Assembly: GCF_031128465.2 (NCBI RefSeq)
Contig: NZ_CP155618.1
Span: forward strand, 1,993,501-2,057,500
Direction: 5' to 3'
DNA from: Mariniflexile litorale
Lineage (GTDB): Bacteria; Bacteroidota; Bacteroidia; Flavobacteriales; Flavobacteriaceae
Length of the DNA stretch: 64,000 nt
Both the position numbers and the translations under genes were made by a program. Shown here one piece after another: positions 36,467 to 45,605 of the stretch. Within the stretch, counting starts at the first letter, position 1. The number at the start of each line of letters is the position of its first letter. Below the pieces are notes generated by a model. It made no database searches. It had not been told where the DNA came from and was given only the letters and a program-made list of their open reading frames with translations.

Positions 36467-36910
36467 TTAAACTTTTAAGTAAAGATATTTTTTCTCATAA
36501 TCTATAACAGCATTCGATTTTTTTAAAATATCGGCACCAATGATGCCATCAACGGGTTTTGAATTATGGTTTATAAGCGCGGTATTTACATGTGTAAGGT
36601 TGAATAAAACCAAAACAACTTTATTAGTTTCCCATTTTCCAATTTTCATCTTGTTTTTTTTAGACATTTTAGTCTCCATATTAATAGCTCCAGCTCCTGC
36701 TGCCAAAATATGTGAATCTTTTACCTTGAGATTAAAATTGTCTACAGCTTCAAATCCTACACATGAGTTGGATGCTCCAGTATCTAGTATAAAACGACCT
36801 TTAACACCATTTAGGGTTGCTTTTATTTCGAAATGATTGGTTTTGGTAAGACGTAACTTTACTTGAATATAGCCTTTGTTAAGAAGAAATTCTTGAAGGG
36901 TTTCTGTCAT
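36467..36910 (-). CDS. Retropepsin-like aspartic protease, single domain
   Basis: A 147-residue protein with one retropepsin-type domain. The catalytic motif is ILDTGASNSC with Asp43, and the C-terminal family motif is GIIGADILKKSNAVIDYEKK. Such single-domain aspartic proteases act as dimers. There is no signal peptide or membrane segment, so it should be cytosolic. The start overlaps the end of the CHAT-protein gene by 32 bp in another frame, implying coupled translation. Co-occurrence with a caspase-like CHAT protein and a response regulator suggests a proteolytic signalling role, which is inference. Confidence 0.85.
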   Translation of the reverse strand: MTETLQEFLLNKGYIQVKLRLTKTNHFEIKATLNGVKGRFILDTGASNSCVGFEAVDNFNLKVKDSHILAAGAGAINMETKMSKKNKMKIGKWETNKVVLVLFNLTHVNTALINHNSKPVDGIIGADILKKSNAVIDYEKKYLYLKV

Positions 36911-39464
36911 AATTTTTAAATTTCAAGAATAAAAGTAACATAATCATAATGATTGCTATGCTAAAAATAATATAAAATATGGTATTATCGGGTTTGGCAG
37001 GTTCAAGTGTTCCGTAATAAACAAAGGCACTCCAATAATAAGGCGATTTTTTTACATTGCTAATGGTTTCATTTTCGAGGTATTCTATTTTTGATTGTTG
37101 ATTAGCTAGGTACGCCGATTCCGATTTATTATAATTTTCATAAAAAGATTGCATGATTTGTGATGTCGATAAATCATTAATTTGCCAAAGTGAAAATAAT
37201 AGGTTTTCTGCCCCGGCATACTGAAACCCTCGGGCAATACTCATAGCTCCTTCACCTTTGTAAAGCTTACCAATACCCGTTTCGCAGGCACTTAAAACGA
37301 CTAAATTGGGGTTTAGGTCTAAACTGTATAATTCATTTAAAAACATAGTCTCATTGTAAAACGATATGTTAGCAGGGTTTACAAAATCGCCGCTACTTGC
37401 ATGGGTTGATAAATGTAAAATACTGTAATTACTGGCATTTTCTATAAAATTTTGTTTTGATGCTTTGTTATTCATAAACAAACGAGCGGGCATTTCATTT
37501 TCAATGGCATGTGCTTCATTAATTGAATACGTTAGTTTATGATTGGTGTTTTCAAATACTGGAAAAAAACCAAGCAATTCTTTGTTTTTACGTTCTTGAC
37601 TTTTGGCTAGGTAAAATGTTGCACTCGAATTATAAATAATATTTTGACTTTTAATTACAAAAGGCATTTTTGAAAAGGAAGTTGAGGTAGTTTTTAAACT
37701 GATTAGTGCTTCAAATGGAATAAAATTTAGTAAACCATCAGGAATTATCACCACATTTTTATGGAGTGAAAATTTATCAAAATTTAGTAGTTTGAAAATA
37801 GTATAAGCTTGACGGGTGTAATTATTTATATCGTTATTTATAATGGAAGCATCATCAAATAAATGAATAAAGCTTATAATGTTTTTTCTGATTTCTTCAG
37901 TTAACTGAAGACGTTCAATAGCAATATCTTTTTCTGAAATTATAAATTGATACAAAGTGTTTTTTCCGAAGAAGTATTCAACTAAGATAGCTTCGTCTTT
38001 ATTTAATTTATTTTGAAAATGCACTAAAGAATCGGTTCGATTTTTTTCTGGATATTTTTTGGTAATGACTGCTTTTAGGGTTTTTAGTTGAAGACTAATA
38101 GCGCTAAGTTTTTCGCTTAAATTGTTTACTGTTGATGCTTTATTAGTGCTAAGTTGTTCTTTTATTAATAAACCTGTATAATATTCTTGCGTTTTTAAAA
38201 GTTGAAACTCTTTAGAAAGTAAACTGTCGTTTGGAAACTTTTGTAAGCGCCATTTTTTTTGATTCATATCCTTTAAAATCGAAGCTTTATTGTTCTCTGA
38301 ATATTGAAATGCTTCAAACAAAAGTGATTTGTTTTTAGTTTGTTCATAGGTGTTAAAAAGGAGGTCTATACAGTGTTCACTCCTAATTCGGTTAGAGGTT
38401 TCATTGAAAATTTTAGCTTCTTGCGAAGTCCAATTTTCTTGCAATAAATCAGATACAAAAAAACTTAAATCGTAACTTTCTAATGCTTTTTTGGGGTCGA
38501 TTTGAATGGTAGCATATAAATCAAAAATGTCTATGAATGTGTTTTCTGGGTATAAATATTTTTTATTTGGTAAGCCATTTCCTTGAAAATTTGGTAATAA
38601 TATTTTGGAGGCTTGTTGCAAACTTTTTAGAGCTTCGTTGGGTTGTTTAAGTAAATGAAATAATTGTGCTTCTTCAACATGAAACTTTGCTAAATCCCTT
38701 GTTGCTAAATCCATTTTAACAAGATATTCTTTTGCTTTTTGAAAAGAAGAAAGAGCATTTTCGTAATTGCCTTTTTGAAGTTCAATTAGATAATTGTTTT
38801 TATGCGTTTCAAAATTTAAATTGGTAGAGGTACTGTTTAATAGAGATGCATCTTCGTATTTGTTTAAAGCCGCTAAACTGCTTGTTTTTATGCTTTGAAG
38901 CAATGATTTTTGGTCGCTATTTATATTAGGAAATTTAAAAGCGTCCGCAACAATTTTCAAGACGGTTTCATGCTTATTAATTGTTTGATATAGTTTAGCC
39001 AAATTGATAGCACCACTAATTTGGTGTGTAATGTTTTTACTTTTTTCAGCTAAAAAAATATATTGGTTGATGGTACTAACGGCGTTGGTATAATCGCCAG
39101 TTTTGGTATATAAATTTCCCAGGGGTTTTAAACAGTTTTCAATGATATCGAAATCTGAAAGTTTTGAAAGTTCATTTTTGTTGAATCGTTTTAAAGCATC
39201 TTCATATGTAGAAATGGCTTCTTTTAATTTTGAATGTTCATCTAAATAATACCCTTTATGGCATTGTAAAAAAACCAGTGCCAACTGCTCATCTTTAGTT
39301 TTTGCATGGTTTTTAAAAGTGGATTCCTGCTGGGTTAATAGCTTTAATGAAGCTTTATTTTTATTGCTAATAAATGTTTCGGCAGCGGTATAAATACCTT
39401 CTTCTAAATTTTGAGAAAATGAAATTCCGCATATAAAAAAGGATAGAAAAAATATTTTTTTCAT
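36879..39464 (-). CDS. TPR-CHAT domain protein (caspase-like protease), membrane-anchored
   Basis: An 861-residue protein. The frame is open to 39545, but the ATG at 39464 starts a signal peptide (MKKIFFLSFFICGISFSQN), so it was chosen. A long TPR array (about 30-400) is followed by helical linkers and a C-terminal CHAT peptidase domain with the His/Cys dyad: His688 in ILHLSTHASSG and Cys727 in VLSACETG. One membrane helix lies near the C-terminus (IIFSIAIIMIMLLLFLKF), then a short basic tail. The protease should face the periplasm. CHAT proteins are caspase/separase relatives that often cleave specific partners. It lies 31 nt behind the PKD/barrel gene and overlaps the retropepsin gene. Confidence 0.88.
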   Translation of the reverse strand: MKKIFFLSFFICGISFSQNLEEGIYTAAETFISNKNKASLKLLTQQESTFKNHAKTKDEQLALVFLQCHKGYYLDEHSKLKEAISTYEDALKRFNKNELSKLSDFDIIENCLKPLGNLYTKTGDYTNAVSTINQYIFLAEKSKNITHQISGAINLAKLYQTINKHETVLKIVADAFKFPNINSDQKSLLQSIKTSSLAALNKYEDASLLNSTSTNLNFETHKNNYLIELQKGNYENALSSFQKAKEYLVKMDLATRDLAKFHVEEAQLFHLLKQPNEALKSLQQASKILLPNFQGNGLPNKKYLYPENTFIDIFDLYATIQIDPKKALESYDLSFFVSDLLQENWTSQEAKIFNETSNRIRSEHCIDLLFNTYEQTKNKSLLFEAFQYSENNKASILKDMNQKKWRLQKFPNDSLLSKEFQLLKTQEYYTGLLIKEQLSTNKASTVNNLSEKLSAISLQLKTLKAVITKKYPEKNRTDSLVHFQNKLNKDEAILVEYFFGKNTLYQFIISEKDIAIERLQLTEEIRKNIISFIHLFDDASIINNDINNYTRQAYTIFKLLNFDKFSLHKNVVIIPDGLLNFIPFEALISLKTTSTSFSKMPFVIKSQNIIYNSSATFYLAKSQERKNKELLGFFPVFENTNHKLTYSINEAHAIENEMPARLFMNNKASKQNFIENASNYSILHLSTHASSGDFVNPANISFYNETMFLNELYSLDLNPNLVVLSACETGIGKLYKGEGAMSIARGFQYAGAENLLFSLWQINDLSTSQIMQSFYENYNKSESAYLANQQSKIEYLENETISNVKKSPYYWSAFVYYGTLEPAKPDNTIFYIIFSIAIIMIMLLLFLKFKNYDRNPSRISS

Positions 39465-39495
39465 TTGAGTGAGTTGCCAAAAGAACCTTAGGTTC

Positions 39496-41454
39496 TTAAA
39501 ATTTCCAAATGGCATAAAACTGCCAATAATTAAAATCTTTTTCAAAATTCATAATATAACGGGCGCCTAAACTTGGGCCAATTCTAGCAAAACCTGCGGT
39601 AGCTTCAAACAACAAGCCTGTTCTTAAATTGTTAAATGAATTAGTTTCATTAGTGGTGTTTTCTTTAGTGCTAAATGGAGGTGAATCTGTTAGGTCACCT
39701 TCAAATTGTTCCACTAAAACCGATTGTTCTTGTTTTTCACTAAGTGAAATGGTGTTTTGTAAGCCAGCACCAAGTCCAATATAATTATTAAGGTTATAAC
39801 GGAGTAAAACAGGTATATCCCAATCAATATTTTTAAAAGAATTATTAGTTGTAGTCCGTTGTAAAAAACGAAATCCCTGTGCGCCATCTTGTATAAATTC
39901 TTCTCTTACATTTGTTTGGGTGTTGTAATTATGAAAATTATTCATTAATTCTACTTGCCAGTACAAGCGATACGATTTATATGGCGAGAGCGTAGCTCCA
40001 AAAAAGTAACTTTCAGAATTATTTAAATCTGAAAACGAATTGACTCCAACTTTGGCACCAATGGAAATACCTGGTAGGAAGCGTGTCGTAGAATAGTTGG
40101 TGATAATCGGGTCGTTTTTATCGAAAATAATAGCGGTTCTGCTTTTGGTTTTTTTCTTATGAAAATCTTTAGCAAATTTAATACTGTATTTTACGAAGCC
40201 TTTCGTAGAATCATACTCTTTTACGTTTTTTTGTTCACTCCCAGAGAGGTAAATATTTTTGAAAGTGAAGATCGCCTGGGAATCTGTAAACGTTGTATCC
40301 AAACAACTGTATAATACTTCCTTTTTAGGGCAGATATCACATTTGGGATACATATCTAAAACATTTAGAGTCGATTTGTCCAACATTTCTGGAATATCGG
40401 TTTCCAATCGAATAGTTCGTGCTGGTCCTTCACCGTTATTCTGGAACTTGATTTTATATTTTAAAGTTTTAAAACGTACCAAGCGGTAATTCATAAAGGT
40501 TCCGTTTGAAGACATTTTATTAGGGTCGTGCGAGGTTACAATTTCCATTTCCATATCCTTAACTTTATGGTTGTCATAATTAGCATCGGGTACATATACA
40601 CCTCTAACCGAAATGATGGCACTGGTATCTTTAAGCATTTCGGGTGTGGTTTTTAAACTGAAAAAGACATTGCGTTCTTCTTTAGGTTGCATATTATCGA
40701 ATTCTAAAAGGCTCCAGTTTTTGTAAAAAGCTTTAGAGTTTGCAACGGTTAAAGGTAGATTGGTTTTTTCGGTGGAATCTTGTGAAAAGGTACGAGTTTC
40801 AATAAATTTGTTATTGGAAGAAGCTAAATAAGTGCCATCATCATCAATATTTCGTGTGAAAGCGAATCCTTCTGCCGAAATATTTTTTTCCTTGTGATAT
40901 GTTCGAGTATCAGTTAATTCGAAATTATTGGCTTTGTATTGGTGTTCGTTATAAAACAGATAGAGTTTTCCATTTGTTGTGTAATCTTTTGGGTTTTTAT
41001 AACTAACTACTATTACCATTTCTTCATCAGGGACAGGTTCTCGATTGCGTTTTAGTATGAAATCTTCATCCATACTAGCAATATCTTTATACTCGGTAGT
41101 TATTTCGCTTATGGCAATTTTTTTTGGTCTGGTTGTTGGGGGCTTACCTGTGTCATAATTATTAGTTGCCCATAATTTTACTTCGTAGTCGCCTGTTTTT
41201 TTATACGTGTGTTTTGGTTTTTCTTCAGTACTGTAATGGCCATCACCAAATTCCCAATAATGGGTGTAAAATGCTTTTGGAGCACCGGCTATTTGATTTA
41301 ATATAGGTGTTTCTGGGGTAAACAAAATTTCATTACCATTGGTGGTATTCTTAATGTTTGCAACTCTTGTAACTGTGTCGTTTGCGATTAGTTTTTGTGC
41401 ATAACCGTAAACACCAATTAAAAATAATAATAGAAAAGAAAACCGTTTGTTCAT
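39496..41454 (-). CDS. PKD-domain protein with C-terminal outer-membrane barrel-like region
   Basis: A 652-residue exported protein. The ATG at 41454 gives a proper signal peptide (MNKRFSFLLLFLIGVYGYAQ); the frame extends to 41502 without one. A PKD domain is near residues 55-115 (YWEFGDGHYSTEEKP, HTYKKTGDYEVKLWA). A middle region contains beta-rich segments with DUF11-like character (KFQNNGEGPARTIRLETDIP). The last 190 residues have alternating strands (GISIGAKVGVNSFSD, YRLYWQVELMNN) and end in Phe (FYAIWKF), like an outer-membrane barrel. The combination is unusual. It precedes the CHAT protease gene in the same operon and may be its surface partner or target. Confidence 0.75.
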   Translation of the reverse strand: MNKRFSFLLLFLIGVYGYAQKLIANDTVTRVANIKNTTNGNEILFTPETPILNQIAGAPKAFYTHYWEFGDGHYSTEEKPKHTYKKTGDYEVKLWATNNYDTGKPPTTRPKKIAISEITTEYKDIASMDEDFILKRNREPVPDEEMVIVVSYKNPKDYTTNGKLYLFYNEHQYKANNFELTDTRTYHKEKNISAEGFAFTRNIDDDGTYLASSNNKFIETRTFSQDSTEKTNLPLTVANSKAFYKNWSLLEFDNMQPKEERNVFFSLKTTPEMLKDTSAIISVRGVYVPDANYDNHKVKDMEMEIVTSHDPNKMSSNGTFMNYRLVRFKTLKYKIKFQNNGEGPARTIRLETDIPEMLDKSTLNVLDMYPKCDICPKKEVLYSCLDTTFTDSQAIFTFKNIYLSGSEQKNVKEYDSTKGFVKYSIKFAKDFHKKKTKSRTAIIFDKNDPIITNYSTTRFLPGISIGAKVGVNSFSDLNNSESYFFGATLSPYKSYRLYWQVELMNNFHNYNTQTNVREEFIQDGAQGFRFLQRTTTNNSFKNIDWDIPVLLRYNLNNYIGLGAGLQNTISLSEKQEQSVLVEQFEGDLTDSPPFSTKENTTNETNSFNNLRTGLLFEATAGFARIGPSLGARYIMNFEKDFNYWQFYAIWKF

Positions 41455-41535
41455 TATAATGAGGTATAAATAGGTTTTAAATATACAAAAAGTGGTATTC
41501 ATGAAACTGTTTTAATAAGTATCTGTTTAAAATGA

Positions 41536-41625
41536 TCAGATATTAGCTATGATTATAGTAATATTCGCATATATTATTAATAATATGATGCATACAAAAA
41601 TGAATATAGAAACAAACTTTTTCAT
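41536..41625 (-). CDS. 29-residue single-helix membrane peptide, first ORF after an ECF-type promoter
   Basis: The minus-strand ATG at 41625 opens a 29-codon frame: MKKFVSIFIFVCIILLIIYA, then NITIIIANI and a TGA stop. A basic N-terminus and one hydrophobic stretch suggest a membrane peptide. It starts about 14 nt after the predicted transcription start of the GGTAACAA-N17-TATAA promoter at 41646-41675 and lies 81 nt before the PKD/barrel gene. It may be a real peptide or a leader. No family is recognised. Confidence 0.5.
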   Translation of the reverse strand: MKKFVSIFIFVCIILLIIYANITIIIANI

Positions 41626-41645
41626 GAGATGTGTTCTGTATATCA

Positions 41646-41675
41646 TTATATCAATAAAGTAGGTGTTTTGTTACC
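41646..41675 (-). promoter_or_regulatory. Putative ECF-sigma promoter (copy 4), before the peptide/PKD/CHAT operon
   Basis: On the minus strand GGTAACAA (41675-41668), 17 nt, and TATAA (41650-41646). Both elements and the spacing are identical to those of three other promoters in the next 2.5 kb. It lies directly after the terminator hairpins of the lipoprotein gene and drives the peptide at 41625 and presumably the whole operon down to the response regulator. Confidence 0.75.
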
Positions 41676-41692
41676 CTTTTTTAATAGAAAAA

Positions 41693-41758
41693 GACCTCAC
41701 AAGTTTTTAAAAACCTGTGAGATCTAAAAAAATCCCAGAAACTTAGTGTCTCTGGGAT
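41693..41758 (-). terminator. Two tandem hairpins after the 325-residue lipoprotein gene
   Basis: ATCCCAGA (41732-41739) pairs with TCTGGGAT (41751-41758). A second, longer imperfect hairpin at 41693-41724 pairs GACCTCACA with TGTGAGATC and is related to the hairpin at 45513-45542. Both are flanked by T-runs on the minus strand. Confidence 0.7.
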
Positions 41759-41823
41759 AAAAAGTAGGTTAAGAATTTTAACAAACCATGACTTTTAAGT
41801 AGGTAATTATAATGAATAGATAA

Positions 41824-42801
41824 TTATGGTAACGCATTAATAATGGTTGTAAGTTGCGCTTCGGTAGCGATAGAAGTTTCACCTTCAGTAAATGTGATAA
41901 TACCGTTTTCAACAATAGTTACAGCTTTTATAGCGTATTTCCAGTCTCCACCATCTTCGGTTGCGAAAATAACATGACATTCTAAACCTATTGGAATTTG
42001 TCCGTAATGTTCGCTGAATAATCCAGTTTGTGCATCGTAAGTGTCAAGACCAGCCAATCCTGAATCTTCACCATCATAAGATAAATATACCGAGCTGTTT
42101 GTGTTATCGTATCCTGTTGGTACTGCTACTAAAATAGTTGTTTTTGGACGTGGATCGCTGTAAAAACGATCTACGTTAGACCATCCAAACGATTGAAAAA
42201 AGCCATAGTATTGGTTTCCTTCGGCAAATACACCACCTTGCCCTTGAGCATCTCGTTTTTCCTCAGCCCAAGCAAGGTTTCCGTCTTCATCAATAATACC
42301 ATTCCATAGTATCATATCGTTATCCGCACCTCCCGTTAAATCGGTAGGGATTTGCATTTGGAAACCACAGTTAGTTTCTAAAGCAACACCATTTTGCGTA
42401 GCTTGTACAAAAAACTCACCACCAGTAATTAGTAGGGCTTTGTCTCCGTTTGGTAAAATTCCCATGGTTGGTTTGTTCGTAGTAAGCATGTTTCCTTTAT
42501 CAAATATTTCGATAAATTCTAATTCTACGGCTCCAGTTACAGCGACACCATTCTTGGTTAAGCAACCACCGTTTATGTAAATTTCAACACCTTTTTCTGA
42601 GGTTAAGTTAATTGATCCATCTTCGGCATTAAATTGGAATGTTTGTGTTAAATCCTCTAAAGCTTGTTCTCTTATAGCATCAAACTCTTGAGCTGTCGCT
42701 GGGATTATTAAACTGTCATTGTCATTGTCGTTTTTTGTACAACTTGTAAATACTAAAGCTGTTAATAAAAGTGTTCCTAAAATGTGTTTTAAATTTTTCA
42801 T
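41824..42801 (-). CDS. Surface or periplasmic lipoprotein of unknown function
   Basis: A 325-residue lipoprotein (LVFTSCTKNDNDND, Cys21, with an Asn/Asp run after the Cys as in flavobacterial surface-exported lipoproteins). The mature part is beta-rich and begins with a segment containing GSINLTSEKGVEIYINGGCL, where the conserved-looking Cys may pair with the one in LETNCGFQMQIP. I do not recognise a characterised family. It stands behind its own GGTAACAA-N17-TATAA promoter and ends in tandem hairpins, so it is monocistronic within the putative sigma regulon. Confidence 0.75.
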   Translation of the reverse strand: MKNLKHILGTLLLTALVFTSCTKNDNDNDSLIIPATAQEFDAIREQALEDLTQTFQFNAEDGSINLTSEKGVEIYINGGCLTKNGVAVTGAVELEFIEIFDKGNMLTTNKPTMGILPNGDKALLITGGEFFVQATQNGVALETNCGFQMQIPTDLTGGADNDMILWNGIIDEDGNLAWAEEKRDAQGQGGVFAEGNQYYGFFQSFGWSNVDRFYSDPRPKTTILVAVPTGYDNTNSSVYLSYDGEDSGLAGLDTYDAQTGLFSEHYGQIPIGLECHVIFATEDGGDWKYAIKAVTIVENGIITFTEGETSIATEAQLTTIINALP

Positions 42802-42832
42802 GATAAATTGGGTTTTAAATTGTTATTCATTG

Positions 42833-42862
42833 TTATATAAATAGGGCAACTGTTTTGTTACC
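42833..42862 (-). promoter_or_regulatory. Putative ECF-sigma promoter (copy 1), before the 325-residue lipoprotein gene
   Basis: On the minus strand GGTAACAA (42862-42855), 17 nt and TATAA (42837-42833), about 32 nt before the ATG. About 58 bp around it are closely similar to the region at 43504-43560, a recent-looking duplication of the promoter cassette. The GGGTAAC part can also pair with GTTGCCC as a hairpin, so termination of the upstream gene may be combined with initiation. Confidence 0.75.
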
Positions 42863-42887
42863 CTGTTTGGGGAATTATTTCTAATTT

Positions 42888-43478
42888 TTAATATACTTGG
42901 AAGCCAAAAGCGATGTAAGGTTGAGCAAAATCGGGGATGGGACCACCAGTACCATAGAAGTTAGAGTTTAAAAACTCGATGTTTCCTTGAATTACTGGAT
43001 AAGGAACATTTGCGTTGTTAGATTTTCTTAATACTCTCCCTATGGTTTCGTTTAGCATGGTATATCCTGGTAATATGGTTCTTTTTACTATAATAATATC
43101 GCCAGAATTAACTTGAACAGGTATGGTAATAGGTTGGTAATCGAGACCTGTTTGAGAAAAAACATGAACTCCACTGTAAGAGGTATTTGTATTTGTGTTG
43201 ATTATTTCCATAGTATAGCCGCCAGTGTATGTGCTAGGGTTTTGGTAACCTATACTACATATTTCTCCTGCAGCATTAATTTTAACAGAATATTCATGGG
43301 TTTCTAAATCCATAAATTCGGCTAAGTCGTCATATCCATTTGCTGCTGAATAAGCATTAGTAATTGCAGATGATACATAAGTAGTGTCGCAAACATTATT
43401 TGTAGGGTTATTGTCGTTGTCGCAACTATTAATGAGTATTACAAAAAATGAAAATAAAAGTGCTTTAAAAGTTTTCAT
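42888..43478 (-). CDS. Small lipoprotein of unknown function
   Basis: A 196-residue lipoprotein. The frame is open to 43520, but the ATG at 43478 yields the normal signal (MKTFKALLFSFFVILINSCD, Cys19) and lies correctly behind the promoter. After the Cys there is an Asn/Asp-rich run typical of exported lipoproteins. The mature domain is beta-rich with many Tyr and Gly residues (SIGYQNPSTYTGGYTMEI) and may be a small beta-sandwich. No family recognised. One of four transcription units with the shared promoter motif. Confidence 0.7.
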   Translation of the reverse strand: MKTFKALLFSFFVILINSCDNDNNPTNNVCDTTYVSSAITNAYSAANGYDDLAEFMDLETHEYSVKINAAGEICSIGYQNPSTYTGGYTMEIINTNTNTSYSGVHVFSQTGLDYQPITIPVQVNSGDIIIVKRTILPGYTMLNETIGRVLRKSNNANVPYPVIQGNIEFLNSNFYGTGGPIPDFAQPYIAFGFQVY

Positions 43479-43503
43479 AATGTTTAATTTAGAGTTTATA
43501 TCA

Positions 43504-43533
43504 TTATATAAACAGGGCAACTAATTTGTTACC
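43504..43533 (-). promoter_or_regulatory. Putative ECF-sigma promoter (copy 2), before the 196-residue lipoprotein gene
   Basis: On the minus strand GGTAACAA (43533-43526), 17 nt and TATAA (43508-43504), about 26 nt before the ATG. Closely similar to copy 1 over nearly 60 bp, including the flanking GGAATTATTT-type sequence. Confidence 0.75.
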
Positions 43534-43560
43534 CTGTTTTGGGAATTATTTTTAATTTTT

Positions 43561-43998
43561 TTAGTGTTGAGGTTGACTCATAATTATTTTTGAGATTACA
43601 GCATCGCCAGAAGCAACTAATTGTATCATTTTATTAGCATAATCTTCAGAAGAGGCATATCCTTTTGCAGAACCTGTTTCAGTTTCAACTTCCCAAAAAT
43701 AATTTCTATTGGTGTTGATTTCAGATTTTAGAACCAAGTAACTTTGAATTTCAGTTCCTAAAACAATTTCGCTAGAGCTAGAAATAGCAATCATTTCTTT
43801 TGCATTTTCAAGAGTAAGGGAAGTTCCTGAATAGATGCCTTTGTCTGTTTCAACTTTCCAGTCAAACACTTGAGCTATGTTTTCTCTTGTTAGAGTTACA
43901 ACTTCAGTTGAAGTGTTGAAGGGTGTTTTTTCATTTGTAGCGTTTACGTTTAATATTGATAAAGCTACTGTTGCGATAATTAAAATTGATTTTTTCAT
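43561..43998 (-). CDS. Small secreted protein with an internal duplication
   Basis: A 145-residue exported protein with a type I signal peptide (about 1-20, LNVNATNEK). Two similar repeats make up the mature chain: FDWKVETDKGIYSGTS from residue 46 and FWEVETETGSAKGYAS from residue 101, each followed by an AKEMI/ANKMI helix-like segment, with Trp48 and Trp102 in equivalent places. No catalytic motif was seen and no family is recognised. It is divergent from the sigma-factor gene, with its GGTAACAA-N17-TATAA promoter in the shared intergenic region, and is the nearest candidate target of that sigma factor. Confidence 0.72.
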   Translation of the reverse strand: MKKSILIIATVALSILNVNATNEKTPFNTSTEVVTLTRENIAQVFDWKVETDKGIYSGTSLTLENAKEMIAISSSSEIVLGTEIQSYLVLKSEINTNRNYFWEVETETGSAKGYASSEDYANKMIQLVASGDAVISKIIMSQPQH

Positions 43999-44056
43999 GA
44001 TTTTTAATTTATGGATTAATTAAAATTTTTGTTTAAGCATTTCTGCTGTTACACCC

Positions 44057-44086
44057 TTATATCAAAACCATTTAAAAATTGTTACC
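44057..44086 (-). promoter_or_regulatory. Putative ECF-sigma promoter (copy 3), divergent from the sigma gene
   Basis: On the minus strand GGTAACAA (44086-44079), 17 nt and TATAA (44061-44057), about 59 nt before the ATG at 43998. Outside the two elements it does not resemble copies 1 and 2, which shows that the elements themselves are conserved and do not merely reflect a duplicated block. Confidence 0.75.
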
Positions 44087-44132
44087 TGTTTATTTTAAAC
44101 TTTTTTTAAATTAGCAGTAAATACAAGGGTTA

Positions 44133-44714
44133 ATGAGCGAAAAAAAAATACATGAAGACCAAAAGTATATTGATGGATTGTTGAAAAACAACTCTTTTAT
44201 TATACAGGCTATTTATAATAAATTCGTACCTAAGGTTATTAATTACATAAAGCAGAACAGTGGCGATGCAGACCAGGCACAAGACATTATACAGGATACT
44301 TTAATAACAATATATAATCAAGCAAGCGAAAAGAAATTAGAGCTTACCTGTCCGTTTGATGCGTATTTCTTTTTACTGTGTAAGCGTAAATGGTTAAATG
44401 AATTAAAAAAATCTTCAAATAAACAGGTAACAATTAATGAAGAAGTTTTATATAAAGATGACGACGCTCAAGAACTAGCATTTGAAACAGAGGTATTTGG
44501 TGAAAAACAAGCTTTATTTACTGAAATGTTTCAAAAATTAGGAAACGCTTGTAAAGAATTATTAACAGCTACTTTTAAAATAAAATCGATGGAAGAAGTA
44601 GCGTTAAGTTTAGGTGTAACATATGCTTACGCTCGAAAAAAGAAATCTTTATGCATAGGCAAATTAACTGAGCTGGTTCAAGAGTCGCCCAAGTTTAACC
44701 AACTTAATAATTAA
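44133..44714 (+). CDS. ECF-type RNA polymerase sigma factor
   Basis: A 193-residue sigma-70-family factor with region 2 (about 25-95; DADQAQDIIQDTLITIYNQ and FDAYFFLLCKRKWLNELKK) and region 4 (about 130-185; MEEVALSLGVTYAYARKKKS). Region 3 is absent, as in extracytoplasmic-function factors. It is followed after 5 nt by a one-helix membrane protein with a cytosolic N-terminus and extracytoplasmic TPR repeats, the layout of an anti-sigma factor. Its promoter could not be identified. Neighbouring genes on the other strand share an unusual promoter motif, making this factor the natural candidate to read it. Confidence 0.88.
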   Translation: MSEKKIHEDQKYIDGLLKNNSFIIQAIYNKFVPKVINYIKQNSGDADQAQDIIQDTLITIYNQASEKKLELTCPFDAYFFLLCKRKWLNELKKSSNKQVTINEEVLYKDDDAQELAFETEVFGEKQALFTEMFQKLGNACKELLTATFKIKSMEEVALSLGVTYAYARKKKSLCIGKLTELVQESPKFNQLNN

Positions 44715-44719
44715 CTGTT

Positions 44720-45454
44720 ATGGAGAATCCCGATTACATATTATTTGAAAATTATCTTTTAGGAGATCTTTCTAAGGAAGAAATAATTGCTTTTGAAACC
44801 CGTTTGGAAAGCGATTTAAAATTCAAAAATAGTTTTAATACTTATAAAGAATTGTCTTCCTTTTTAGAACATAAATTTGAAAATGAACCTAATTCAACAG
44901 CATTTCAAAATAACTTAAAGTCTATTTCTAAAACCTATTTTGAAAAGCAAGAATCATCTAAAAAAGTTATTAGGTTTAAACCTTGGCAATATGCCATAGC
45001 TGCTAGTATCGCTTTGTTAATTGGAATAACGTTGTTTAATAACCTTTCAAGCCCAATTTATAGTGATTATGCGAATTACGAAAGTATCAGTTTAACGGTT
45101 AGAGGCAGTCAAGATGGCTTATTGAAAACAGCTGAAAAGGCTTTTAATAGTAAAGACTTTGTTACTGCAGAAGTGGCCTTTAAAGAATTGCTATTAACAG
45201 ATGAGCAAAATTCTGAGTTACAGTTTTACAGAGGAGTTACTAATATTGAGTTGAATAATTTTGCCATTGCAGATTGGTTGCTAGAAGGATTGAAAGAAGG
45301 ACAATCGGTATATAAAAATAAAGCGACTTGGTATTTGGCATTAAGTAATTTAAAACAAAAAAAATACGATGTTTGTTTAGAAATCTTAAAAGAACTTCCT
45401 GAAGATGCTGATGATTATGATAGAGCACAAAAACTTATAAAGAAGTTAGATTGA
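44720..45454 (+). CDS. Membrane protein with extracytoplasmic TPR repeats, probable anti-sigma factor
   Basis: A 244-residue protein with a cytosolic N-terminal region (about 1-88) that begins YILFENYLLGDLSKEEIIAF, similar to the start of many zinc-less anti-sigma domains in Bacteroidota. One membrane helix follows (about 90-108, YAIAASIALLIGITLF), then about three TPR-like repeats (AEKAFNSKDFVTAEVAFKEL, FAIADWLLEGL, KKYDVCLEILKELPED) outside the membrane. It could bind the sigma factor inside and sense protein partners outside. The anti-sigma role is inferred from position and topology. Confidence 0.75.
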   Translation: MENPDYILFENYLLGDLSKEEIIAFETRLESDLKFKNSFNTYKELSSFLEHKFENEPNSTAFQNNLKSISKTYFEKQESSKKVIRFKPWQYAIAASIALLIGITLFNNLSSPIYSDYANYESISLTVRGSQDGLLKTAEKAFNSKDFVTAEVAFKELLLTDEQNSELQFYRGVTNIELNNFAIADWLLEGLKEGQSVYKNKATWYLALSNLKQKKYDVCLEILKELPEDADDYDRAQKLIKKLD

Positions 45455-45512
45455 TGTCTGTCAAGTCCCGCATTGTTGAGAAATAAAAATATTTTTGAGT
45501 TTAAAGAATTTG

Positions 45513-45542
45513 GACCTCACAGGTTTTAAAGCCTGTGAGGTC
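45513..45542. terminator. Hairpin after the anti-sigma-like gene
   Basis: GACCTCACAGG (45513-45523) and CCTGTGAGGTC (45532-45542) form an 11-bp perfect stem followed by CTTTTC. The same stem sequence in diverged form occurs at 41693-41724, so it is also a recurring palindrome. Confidence 0.7.
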
Positions 45543-45605
45543 TTTTCATTTGTGAAAATTTGTGAAATTCGTGTCAAACTTTAAATACTTCATTATTTTT
45601 ACCAA

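Follow-up and report, generated by a model that had tools for sequence, protein, structure and literature searches.

Small sigma factors held by a membrane-bound partner are the closest described relatives of the system considered here. RpoE of Escherichia coli is a two-region sigma factor with a membrane anti-sigma factor as its neighbour, envelope targets and an AAC-bearing -35 box. Among extracytoplasmic function (ECF) sigma factors in general, a motif before the factor's own gene (positive autoregulation) is common but not obligatory. In Bacteroidota, to our knowledge, a promoter motif or signal has been established for few factors of this class. Das-Dma of Bacteroides is an ECF sigma factor and membrane anti-sigma pair, according to the accessible part of PMC13088901. 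In the CASP system of type III-E CRISPR loci, as presented in excerpts of PMC10028731, Csx29 (a tetratricopeptide repeat (TPR)-CHAT protein) accompanies Csx30 and CASP-sigma, and the TPR-CHAT protease removes the sigma inhibitor. E. coli FliA has intragenic promoters, for example inside flhC for motAB-cheAW, of which only 5 of 30 gave a detectable RNA change (available portion of PMC4183435). Here we analyse a stretch of 64,000 nucleotides (nt) from the flavobacterium Mariniflexile litorale (the window), in which an ECF sigma factor gene lies beside four copies of one promoter-like motif. The locus is a sigma / TPR anti-sigma / TPR-CHAT module, and we are confident, from patterns of sequence conservation, that its sigma factor has a tiny and mostly local regulon marked by the shared motif; the factor would be held by the probable anti-sigma factor and receive feedback from a copy of that motif inside its own gene.

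The sigma gene (44133 to 44714, plus strand) encodes a protein that has the build of an ECF factor. It is short (193 amino acids), comprises regions 2 and 4 only, and exceeds the cut-offs of TIGR02937 (sigma70-ECF, 49.5 bits versus 42.9) and Sigma70_r2 (27.4 versus 24). Its nearest orthologue in the scanned collection, 93% identical, belongs to Mariniflexile sp. AS56 (Flavobacteriaceae). On the opposite strand, GGTAACAA is followed after exactly 17 nt by TATAA at the four sites that had been predicted, which we call P1 (44057 to 44086), P2 (43504 to 43533), P3 (42833 to 42862) and P4 (41646 to 41675). Their last bases lie 58, 25, 31 and 20 nt from an ATG, within the proposed range of 20 to 60 nt. 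All four copies are real, and a fifth had been overlooked: an exact match at 44426 to 44455 on the plus strand, inside the sigma gene and pointing to the anti-sigma gene.

A scan of the whole 4,521,428-base genome, which the original prediction had called for, found exact matches to GGTAACAA-N17-TATAA at these five sites, all between window positions 41646 and 44455 (about 2.8 kb), and the backward control pattern had one exact match genome-wide. By chance, 0.03 matches are expected in the window, and none of 100 shuffles reached five. With one mismatch tolerated, the motif gained 16 scattered matches in the genome and the backward control 32; the set is therefore delimited by the strict motif, and no wider one-mismatch regulon is apparent. 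A duplicated block had been assigned to copies 1 and 2, whereas the extended similarity is instead common to the sites at 43533 and 42862 (54 of 71 bases), with 39 of 71 shared between 44086 and 43533. Chance clustering or simple duplication as the origin of the copies is ruled out by the shuffles, the genome-wide confinement and the orthologous loci. The promoter-like sequence has the consensus RGGTAACAAWW, a 17-nt spacer and TTKATATAA; the logo, like the hairpin counts given below, was built on exact-motif sites only (156).

For orthologous loci we used the best 80 of 349 related stretches recruited by the sigma protein, which together with the window form 81 clustered loci. The motif occurs on the divergent strand in 76 of the 80, as had been expected near orthologous sigma genes, and the reversed control motif has zero matches across all 80. 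When spacers of 16 to 18 were scanned, the spacing was 17 in all but a single instance of 18, and the candidate -35 box is of the AAC type. Upstream regions were scored with a matrix built from these seed sites minus one locus at a time, so that close relatives of the omitted locus are still represented; its shuffles move two-base blocks. Scores above 20 bits were obtained for every c11 orthologue, that is, the gene behind P1 (63/63), for 72 of 88 c1 genes, 9 of 11 c16, 2 of 7 c18 and 14 of 77 c4; sixteen loci, including the window, carry an exact match upstream of c4, the position of P4. No such score was found before the CHAT gene c5 (0/76), the anti-sigma gene (0/80), tatD (0/73), exbB (0/71) or the sigma gene's own start (0/80), where positive autoregulation would place it. 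Across the 81 loci, a scan of both strands with the matrix gave 272 sites above zero, and just 5 of them lie outside the target upstreams and the sigma gene.

Motif and sigma factor also travel together across genomes. Of the 299 same-family genomes scanned, 43 contain the motif in a stricter form and 44 have a sigma orthologue above 200 bits, a clear threshold given that the next best matches fall below 105 bits. A hand tally gives 39 genomes with both, 5 with sigma only, 4 with the motif only and 251 with neither (Fisher p about 1e-38, uncorrected for kinship). Sigma-positive genomes contain 15 sites unlinked to the sigma gene, and 14 of these precede open reading frames (ORFs) judged by eye to be exported (12 at 21 to 69 nt, two at 199 nt); the remaining one (G026) falls within a coding region. 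Of the four sites in sigma-negative genomes, three precede no exported ORF, and one, from an assembly that is 82% complete, precedes a homologue of c1. Together with the genome confinement and the 76 loci, this co-occurrence supports the original proposal of a local regulon of the adjoining sigma factor, and we regard the regulon as well supported, with direct recognition by this factor being the probable basis. The targets had been described as exported or membrane proteins, which holds both in the window and at the 14 unlinked sites.

The unlinked targets include OmpA-family proteins identified by Pfam in two genera and an N-terminal look-alike in a third, and one target has a weak match to a type IX tail. 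L088, L096 and L217 thus represent three genera in which the motif stands before the same OmpA-like type of protein, away from the sigma gene, with the third judged by its N-terminus only. In the related genomes L092 and L093, the motif lies 199 nt upstream of an ORF for a curlin-repeat protein (one of the two was scanned), again at a distance from the sigma gene, which suggests that the regulon is able to take in curli-like fibres.

The copy inside the sigma gene falls in the stretch that links region 2 to region 4. We compared 98 distinct but not independent sigma genes (the 80 loci, the window and 17 divergent loci down to 52% identity), and GGTAACA is intact in all 98 and GGTAACAA in 96. 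Codon 99 is GTA and codon 100 is ACA in 98/98, each of which accounts for about one-third of synonymous use in the sigma gene. Codon 98 is GAG in all 82 genes with glutamate, and codon 107 is TCT in all 87 with serine. Of the 130 columns that could be tested, codons 98, 107, 100 and 99 deviate most strongly from the pooled codon use, in a test where serine columns score high partly since serine has two codon boxes. Among the 53 columns with at least four-fold degeneracy, a single codon is used in at least 95% of genes at positions 99, 100 and 107 only. The last base of codon 98 is G in 98/98 through six codons and six residues (GAG, AAG, GGG, CAG, AGG, GCG), and that of codon 106 is A in 98/98 through six codons and five residues (TTA, GTA, CTA, ACA, GCA, GGA). 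Both codons keep their last base despite residue changes, so bases of both boxes are held at the DNA level. Codon 107 is written TCT, TAT or TTT, and codon 108 begins with A in 90/98. Between the boxes, codons 102 and 103 show ordinary usage, and 104 and 105 are too variable for the test.

The usual internal form is GGTAACA followed by ATCTA at promoter spacing. Nine of the 98 genes, the window's included, have tyrosine in place of serine, which turns ATCTA into ATATA and gives the exact fifth match in the window. Codon bias as the source of this copy is ruled out by the codon-use test and by the fixed last bases of codons 98 and 106. A DNA-level role for the element is well supported by these comparisons. 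The element is likely a promoter for the anti-sigma gene, by which active sigma factor would raise the level of its own anti-sigma factor; that it fires, and that negative feedback is its purpose, we infer from sequence and position.

A related arrangement recurs in paralogous sigma families. Sigma proteins 28 to 36% identical to the window's, from other genomes of the same family, occupy the same type of locus: six of the seven inspected have a TPR-CHAT protein, and both of the anti-sigma proteins scanned have TPR matches. We considered 24 of 39 paralogue rows (8 further rows belong to the window's own family). An internal GTAAC and an upstream GGTAACA are both present in 12 of these loci, with 2 having the internal element only, 1 the upstream element only and 9 neither (p = 5e-4). 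By eye, the paralogue -10 regions are of GAAC, CTCTT and TATATAA types. The internal -10 resembles the upstream -10 of its own locus more than those of other loci (permutation p = 2e-4 for the 12 loci with both elements, using a statistic picked after the sequences were seen). Farther away, GTAACA is found at the equivalent place in none of 20 lower-scoring generic ECF genes from the class (L196 to L215); L195 yielded no ORF for this comparison. L216, from another family of the class, follows the same plan: a TPR-CHAT gene is present, AGGTAACA...GATATGA lies inside its sigma gene, and GGTAACAA...GATATCA stands upstream of two genes for proteins with type IX tails. Its 18.5 kb also contain three other GGTAACA sites that are off this plan. 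A separate observation is that G199 alone has seven sigma paralogues of the CHAT-linked type, and the module may be multiplied within that genome.

The two regulatory proteins themselves offer further detail. In region 4.2 of the sigma factor, Y164, Y166, R168 to S172 and C174 are invariant in the 98 orthologues. The gene next to it (44720 to 45454, plus strand) encodes a probable anti-sigma factor with N-terminal helices, one transmembrane segment (residues 91 to 111) and a C-terminal TPR domain that resembles YbgF/CpoB in a structure model with a predicted local distance difference test (pLDDT) score of 79.9. The anti-sigma profile NF052375 matches this protein weakly, at 23.8 bits, under the cut-off of 100. 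The gene adjoins sigma in 79 of 81 loci, and the exceptions (L023 and L080) stop at the end of a contig or stretch. Before the sigma ATG, at 44057 to 44132, a conserved T-rich stretch resembling TAnnTTnG lies near the divergent -35 box and may be the housekeeping promoter of the sigma gene. A scan of the window for consensus sigma-70 promoters and terminators stayed near the shuffle mean and so is little informative, and Rfam has no match at gathering score within 36800 to 45600.

The divergent genes, all on the minus strand, vary in how regularly they accompany the sigma gene. The small secreted protein c11 (43561 to 43998, 145 amino acids, no Pfam match over cut-off) is present in 63 of 81 loci, the optional lipoprotein-like c16 (42888 to 43478, 196 amino acids) in 9, and c18 in 6. 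The lipoprotein-like c1 (41824 to 42801, 325 amino acids, 77/81 loci) appears to combine GAIN/ZU5-UPA-like and transthyretin/CnaB-like domains, and its Cys21 is invariant in 44 of 44 aligned proteins. With VIA-align, the c1 fold resembles CD97 GAIN (Z 10.4, root-mean-square deviation (rmsd) 3.2, 139 residues aligned) and ankyrin-B (Z 9.9, rmsd 3.3, 129 aligned); Foldseek by itself ranked other proteins first, at TM-scores near 0.2. The second domain resembles transthyretin/CnaB folds at Z 5-6. This GAIN/FIIND-like fold prompted us to consider autoproteolysis of c1, an idea that was dropped because inspection by eye of the invariant columns (44 aligned proteins) found no HL/T or SFS-type site.

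P4 had been placed before an ATG at 41625, which is indeed there, and the nearest ORF proves to be that of a 29-amino-acid peptide (41536 to 41625) with a transmembrane window, situated in the leader of c4. Short hydrophobic ORFs of 19 to 43 amino acids, of two sequence types by eye, occur in 15 of 16 c4 leaders, window included. The c4 gene itself (39496 to 41454, 76/81 loci) encodes a 652-amino-acid PKD - DUF7619 - DUF7849 protein by Pfam, and its last residues suggest a C-terminal beta-barrel. Outside the family, DUF7849 matches in 2 of 295 class-level genomes, one of them below cut-off. At the locus over cut-off, c4- and c5-like genes occur and neither the sigma nor the anti-sigma query finds a match; the second genome matches no query at all. 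The last gene, c5 (36879 to 39464, 76/81 loci), encodes a TPR-CHAT protease-like protein of 861 amino acids (CHAT 1e-40). Its signal-like N-terminus, judged by eye, and C-terminal transmembrane segment (825 to 852) indicate that it probably faces the periplasm. The catalytic His and Cys motifs are present in 70 of 73 orthologues longer than 500 amino acids, and the other three are cut by the end of the fetched stretch. Both c4 and c5 are absent from L015, L025, L042, L063 and L072, some of which end early.

At P2 and P3, the promoter appears to be fused to a terminator-like hairpin. An inverted repeat over P2 (43512 to 43537, minus strand, 9 of 10 pairs) is the probable terminator hairpin of c11 and was not flagged by the terminator consensus scan, and another over P3 (42841 to 42866, minus strand, 8 of 10 pairs) is the probable terminator hairpin of c16, its core being listed as terminator-like. 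At c1-type promoters the common form of the repeat is ACAGGGTAAC-N6-GTTGCCCTGT. Of 69 such sites, 38 form 8 or more of the 10 pairs, versus 0.05% with shuffled spacers, although the motif itself fixes bases in several of these pairs. Once G-T pairs are admitted, 43 of the 58 c1 and c16 sites located behind a same-strand gene have the hairpin, as does 1 of the 81 sites before a first gene (p = 7e-22), a comparison that leaves out 15 c4 and 2 c11 downstream sites (hairpin in 1/15 and 0/2). The simplest reading is that the hairpin would terminate the preceding gene and that its left arm holds the -35 box of the next. P4 differs in being preceded by two separate terminator-like hairpins. Given that terminator-like hairpins and the next promoters share bases, most of the divergent genes look like separate transcription units.

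The hairpin can be read in another way, as an operator through which a second, dimeric regulator would control the lipoprotein genes. The repeat overlaps both the -35 box and the spacer, and its arms vary together in several species. The tail that follows is TTTATATAA, with no long T run, which is a weakness of the terminator reading, and only one of the window's two copies passes the terminator scan. The placement of the repeat, where a same-strand gene ends just upstream and almost never at first genes, speaks against an operator, as do the compensating changes in the arms, and we disfavour this reading as improbable. A comparably low chance is given to the idea that the intragenic element acts as a pause site for RNA polymerase still holding sigma, or as a holoenzyme roadblock, that tunes sigma expression. 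The element is transcribed in the sense orientation as part of the sigma gene, and ATCTA, a conserved departure from the consensus, serves as its -10. Known sigma-dependent pauses require mainly a -10-like element, whereas here the promoter spacing of the two boxes is maintained and both follow the promoter of each subfamily.

It is more doubtful still that some other regulator or sigma factor recognizes the motif and that the neighbouring sigma gene is simply linked. Recognition by this factor is deduced from sequence, and GGTAACAA is long for an ECF -35 box; yet such boxes usually hold the same AAC core, the strict motif is absent from 251 of the 255 genomes that have no sigma orthologue, and unlinked sites before exported genes occur in orthologue-bearing genomes, save for the one incomplete assembly. 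Least probable of all is that the internal conservation reflects the protein or codon usage and has no role at the DNA level. Val99 and Thr100 are invariant residues in 98/98, so the protein is possibly constrained there, but neither the exclusive use of GTA and ACA, nor the last bases held at codons 98 and 106 through changes of residue, nor the ordinary usage at 102 and 103 is what such a constraint would yield.

Several observations nevertheless weigh against our interpretation of a sigma factor with a small regulon and internal feedback. The strict motif is absent from 4 of the 80 loci, and in G079, G101, G190, G224 and G289, five of the 39 genomes with both, the strict match does not adjoin the sigma gene. 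Of the five sigma-only genomes, two have other spacing or an altered -10 flank and one has a near match, and the other two (L107 and L108) lack a site even by matrix. The relatedness of the sequences means that our p-values overstate independence. The usual internal -10 is ATCTA rather than ATATAA, and the intragenic site may thus be weak; part of its conservation may also be at the level of the protein, given the invariant Val99 and Thr100. GTAAC is absent from the sigma gene in 10 of the 24 paralogue loci, and the better-scoring class-level relatives L191, L192 and L194 lack GTAACA at that position. Finally, the anti-sigma assignment leans on position, topology and a profile match below cut-off.

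Partly by analogy with the CASP system, we propose the following mechanism. The sigma factor would read the motif via its invariant region 4.2 helix, and an inner-membrane anti-sigma factor, with cytoplasmic helices, one transmembrane segment and a periplasmic TPR domain, would hold it until an envelope signal arrives. The anti-sigma factor would then be inactivated, possibly by the CHAT protein (a step that is a hypothesis), and the freed sigma factor would direct production of the secreted protein, the lipoproteins and the membrane peptide. The PKD protein and the TPR-CHAT protein might be expressed from a promoter of their own or by readthrough, and the promoter inside the sigma gene would restore the anti-sigma factor. 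Three elements go beyond the original prediction: the motif copy within the sigma gene, the overlap of promoters with terminator-like hairpins, and the CHAT module. We also put forward, tentatively and as a possibility that we would sooner doubt than adopt, that Bacteroidota possess a superfamily of envelope-signalling modules whose TPR-CHAT protease, in the periplasm, would cut a TPR-bearing membrane anti-sigma factor to free an ECF sigma factor, and whose target promoter inside the sigma gene would let the freed factor raise the ratio of anti-sigma to sigma at once, forming a pulse generator written in sigma codons. The motif is sharp enough for regulon prediction in most flavobacteria that have the sigma gene, and the intragenic copy offers a clean, testable case of DNA-level control in a regulator's codons that recurs in paralogous families with different -10 boxes.

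Our searches of open-licence papers yielded no description of a sigma / TPR anti-sigma / TPR-CHAT module. Among the papers found, only PMC10028731 joins a CHAT domain with an ECF sigma factor, none of these papers links GGTAAC with a flavobacterial sigma factor, and no GTAAC was found in the accessible part of PMC12596196. The locus resembles RpoE-RseA and Das-Dma in its small two-region sigma factor, adjacent gene for a membrane anti-sigma factor (here putative), envelope targets and AAC-bearing -35 box. Unlike both, it has no motif before the sigma gene but one within its coding sequence, a TPR-CHAT gene in the locus, and a TPR domain at the C-terminus of the putative anti-sigma factor. As with FliA, a sigma-dependent promoter would lie within a gene and drive the next genes; the FliA sites are in other genes, whereas the one described here lies within the gene of the sigma factor itself and is conserved as DNA across paralogous families. 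With CASP, as described in the available portion of PMC10028731, it shares the grouping of a TPR-CHAT protein, an ECF sigma factor and a putative inhibitor at a single locus, some of whose genes are preceded by the sigma motif, and c5 has the CHAT and TPR matches and the catalytic His and Cys motifs of such a protein. The PADLOC-DB matches of ten window proteins spanning 36.9 to 48.4 kb include no Cas model, and thus none of the linked Cas7-11 that characterizes CASP. Unlike in CASP, the CHAT protein here has a signal-like N-terminus and a C-terminal transmembrane segment, and probably faces the periplasm. The repeated link between these sigma factors and TPR-CHAT proteins suggests that the CHAT-controlled sigma switch, which we found described only for CRISPR type III-E loci, has a counterpart that is chromosomal and acts in the periplasm.

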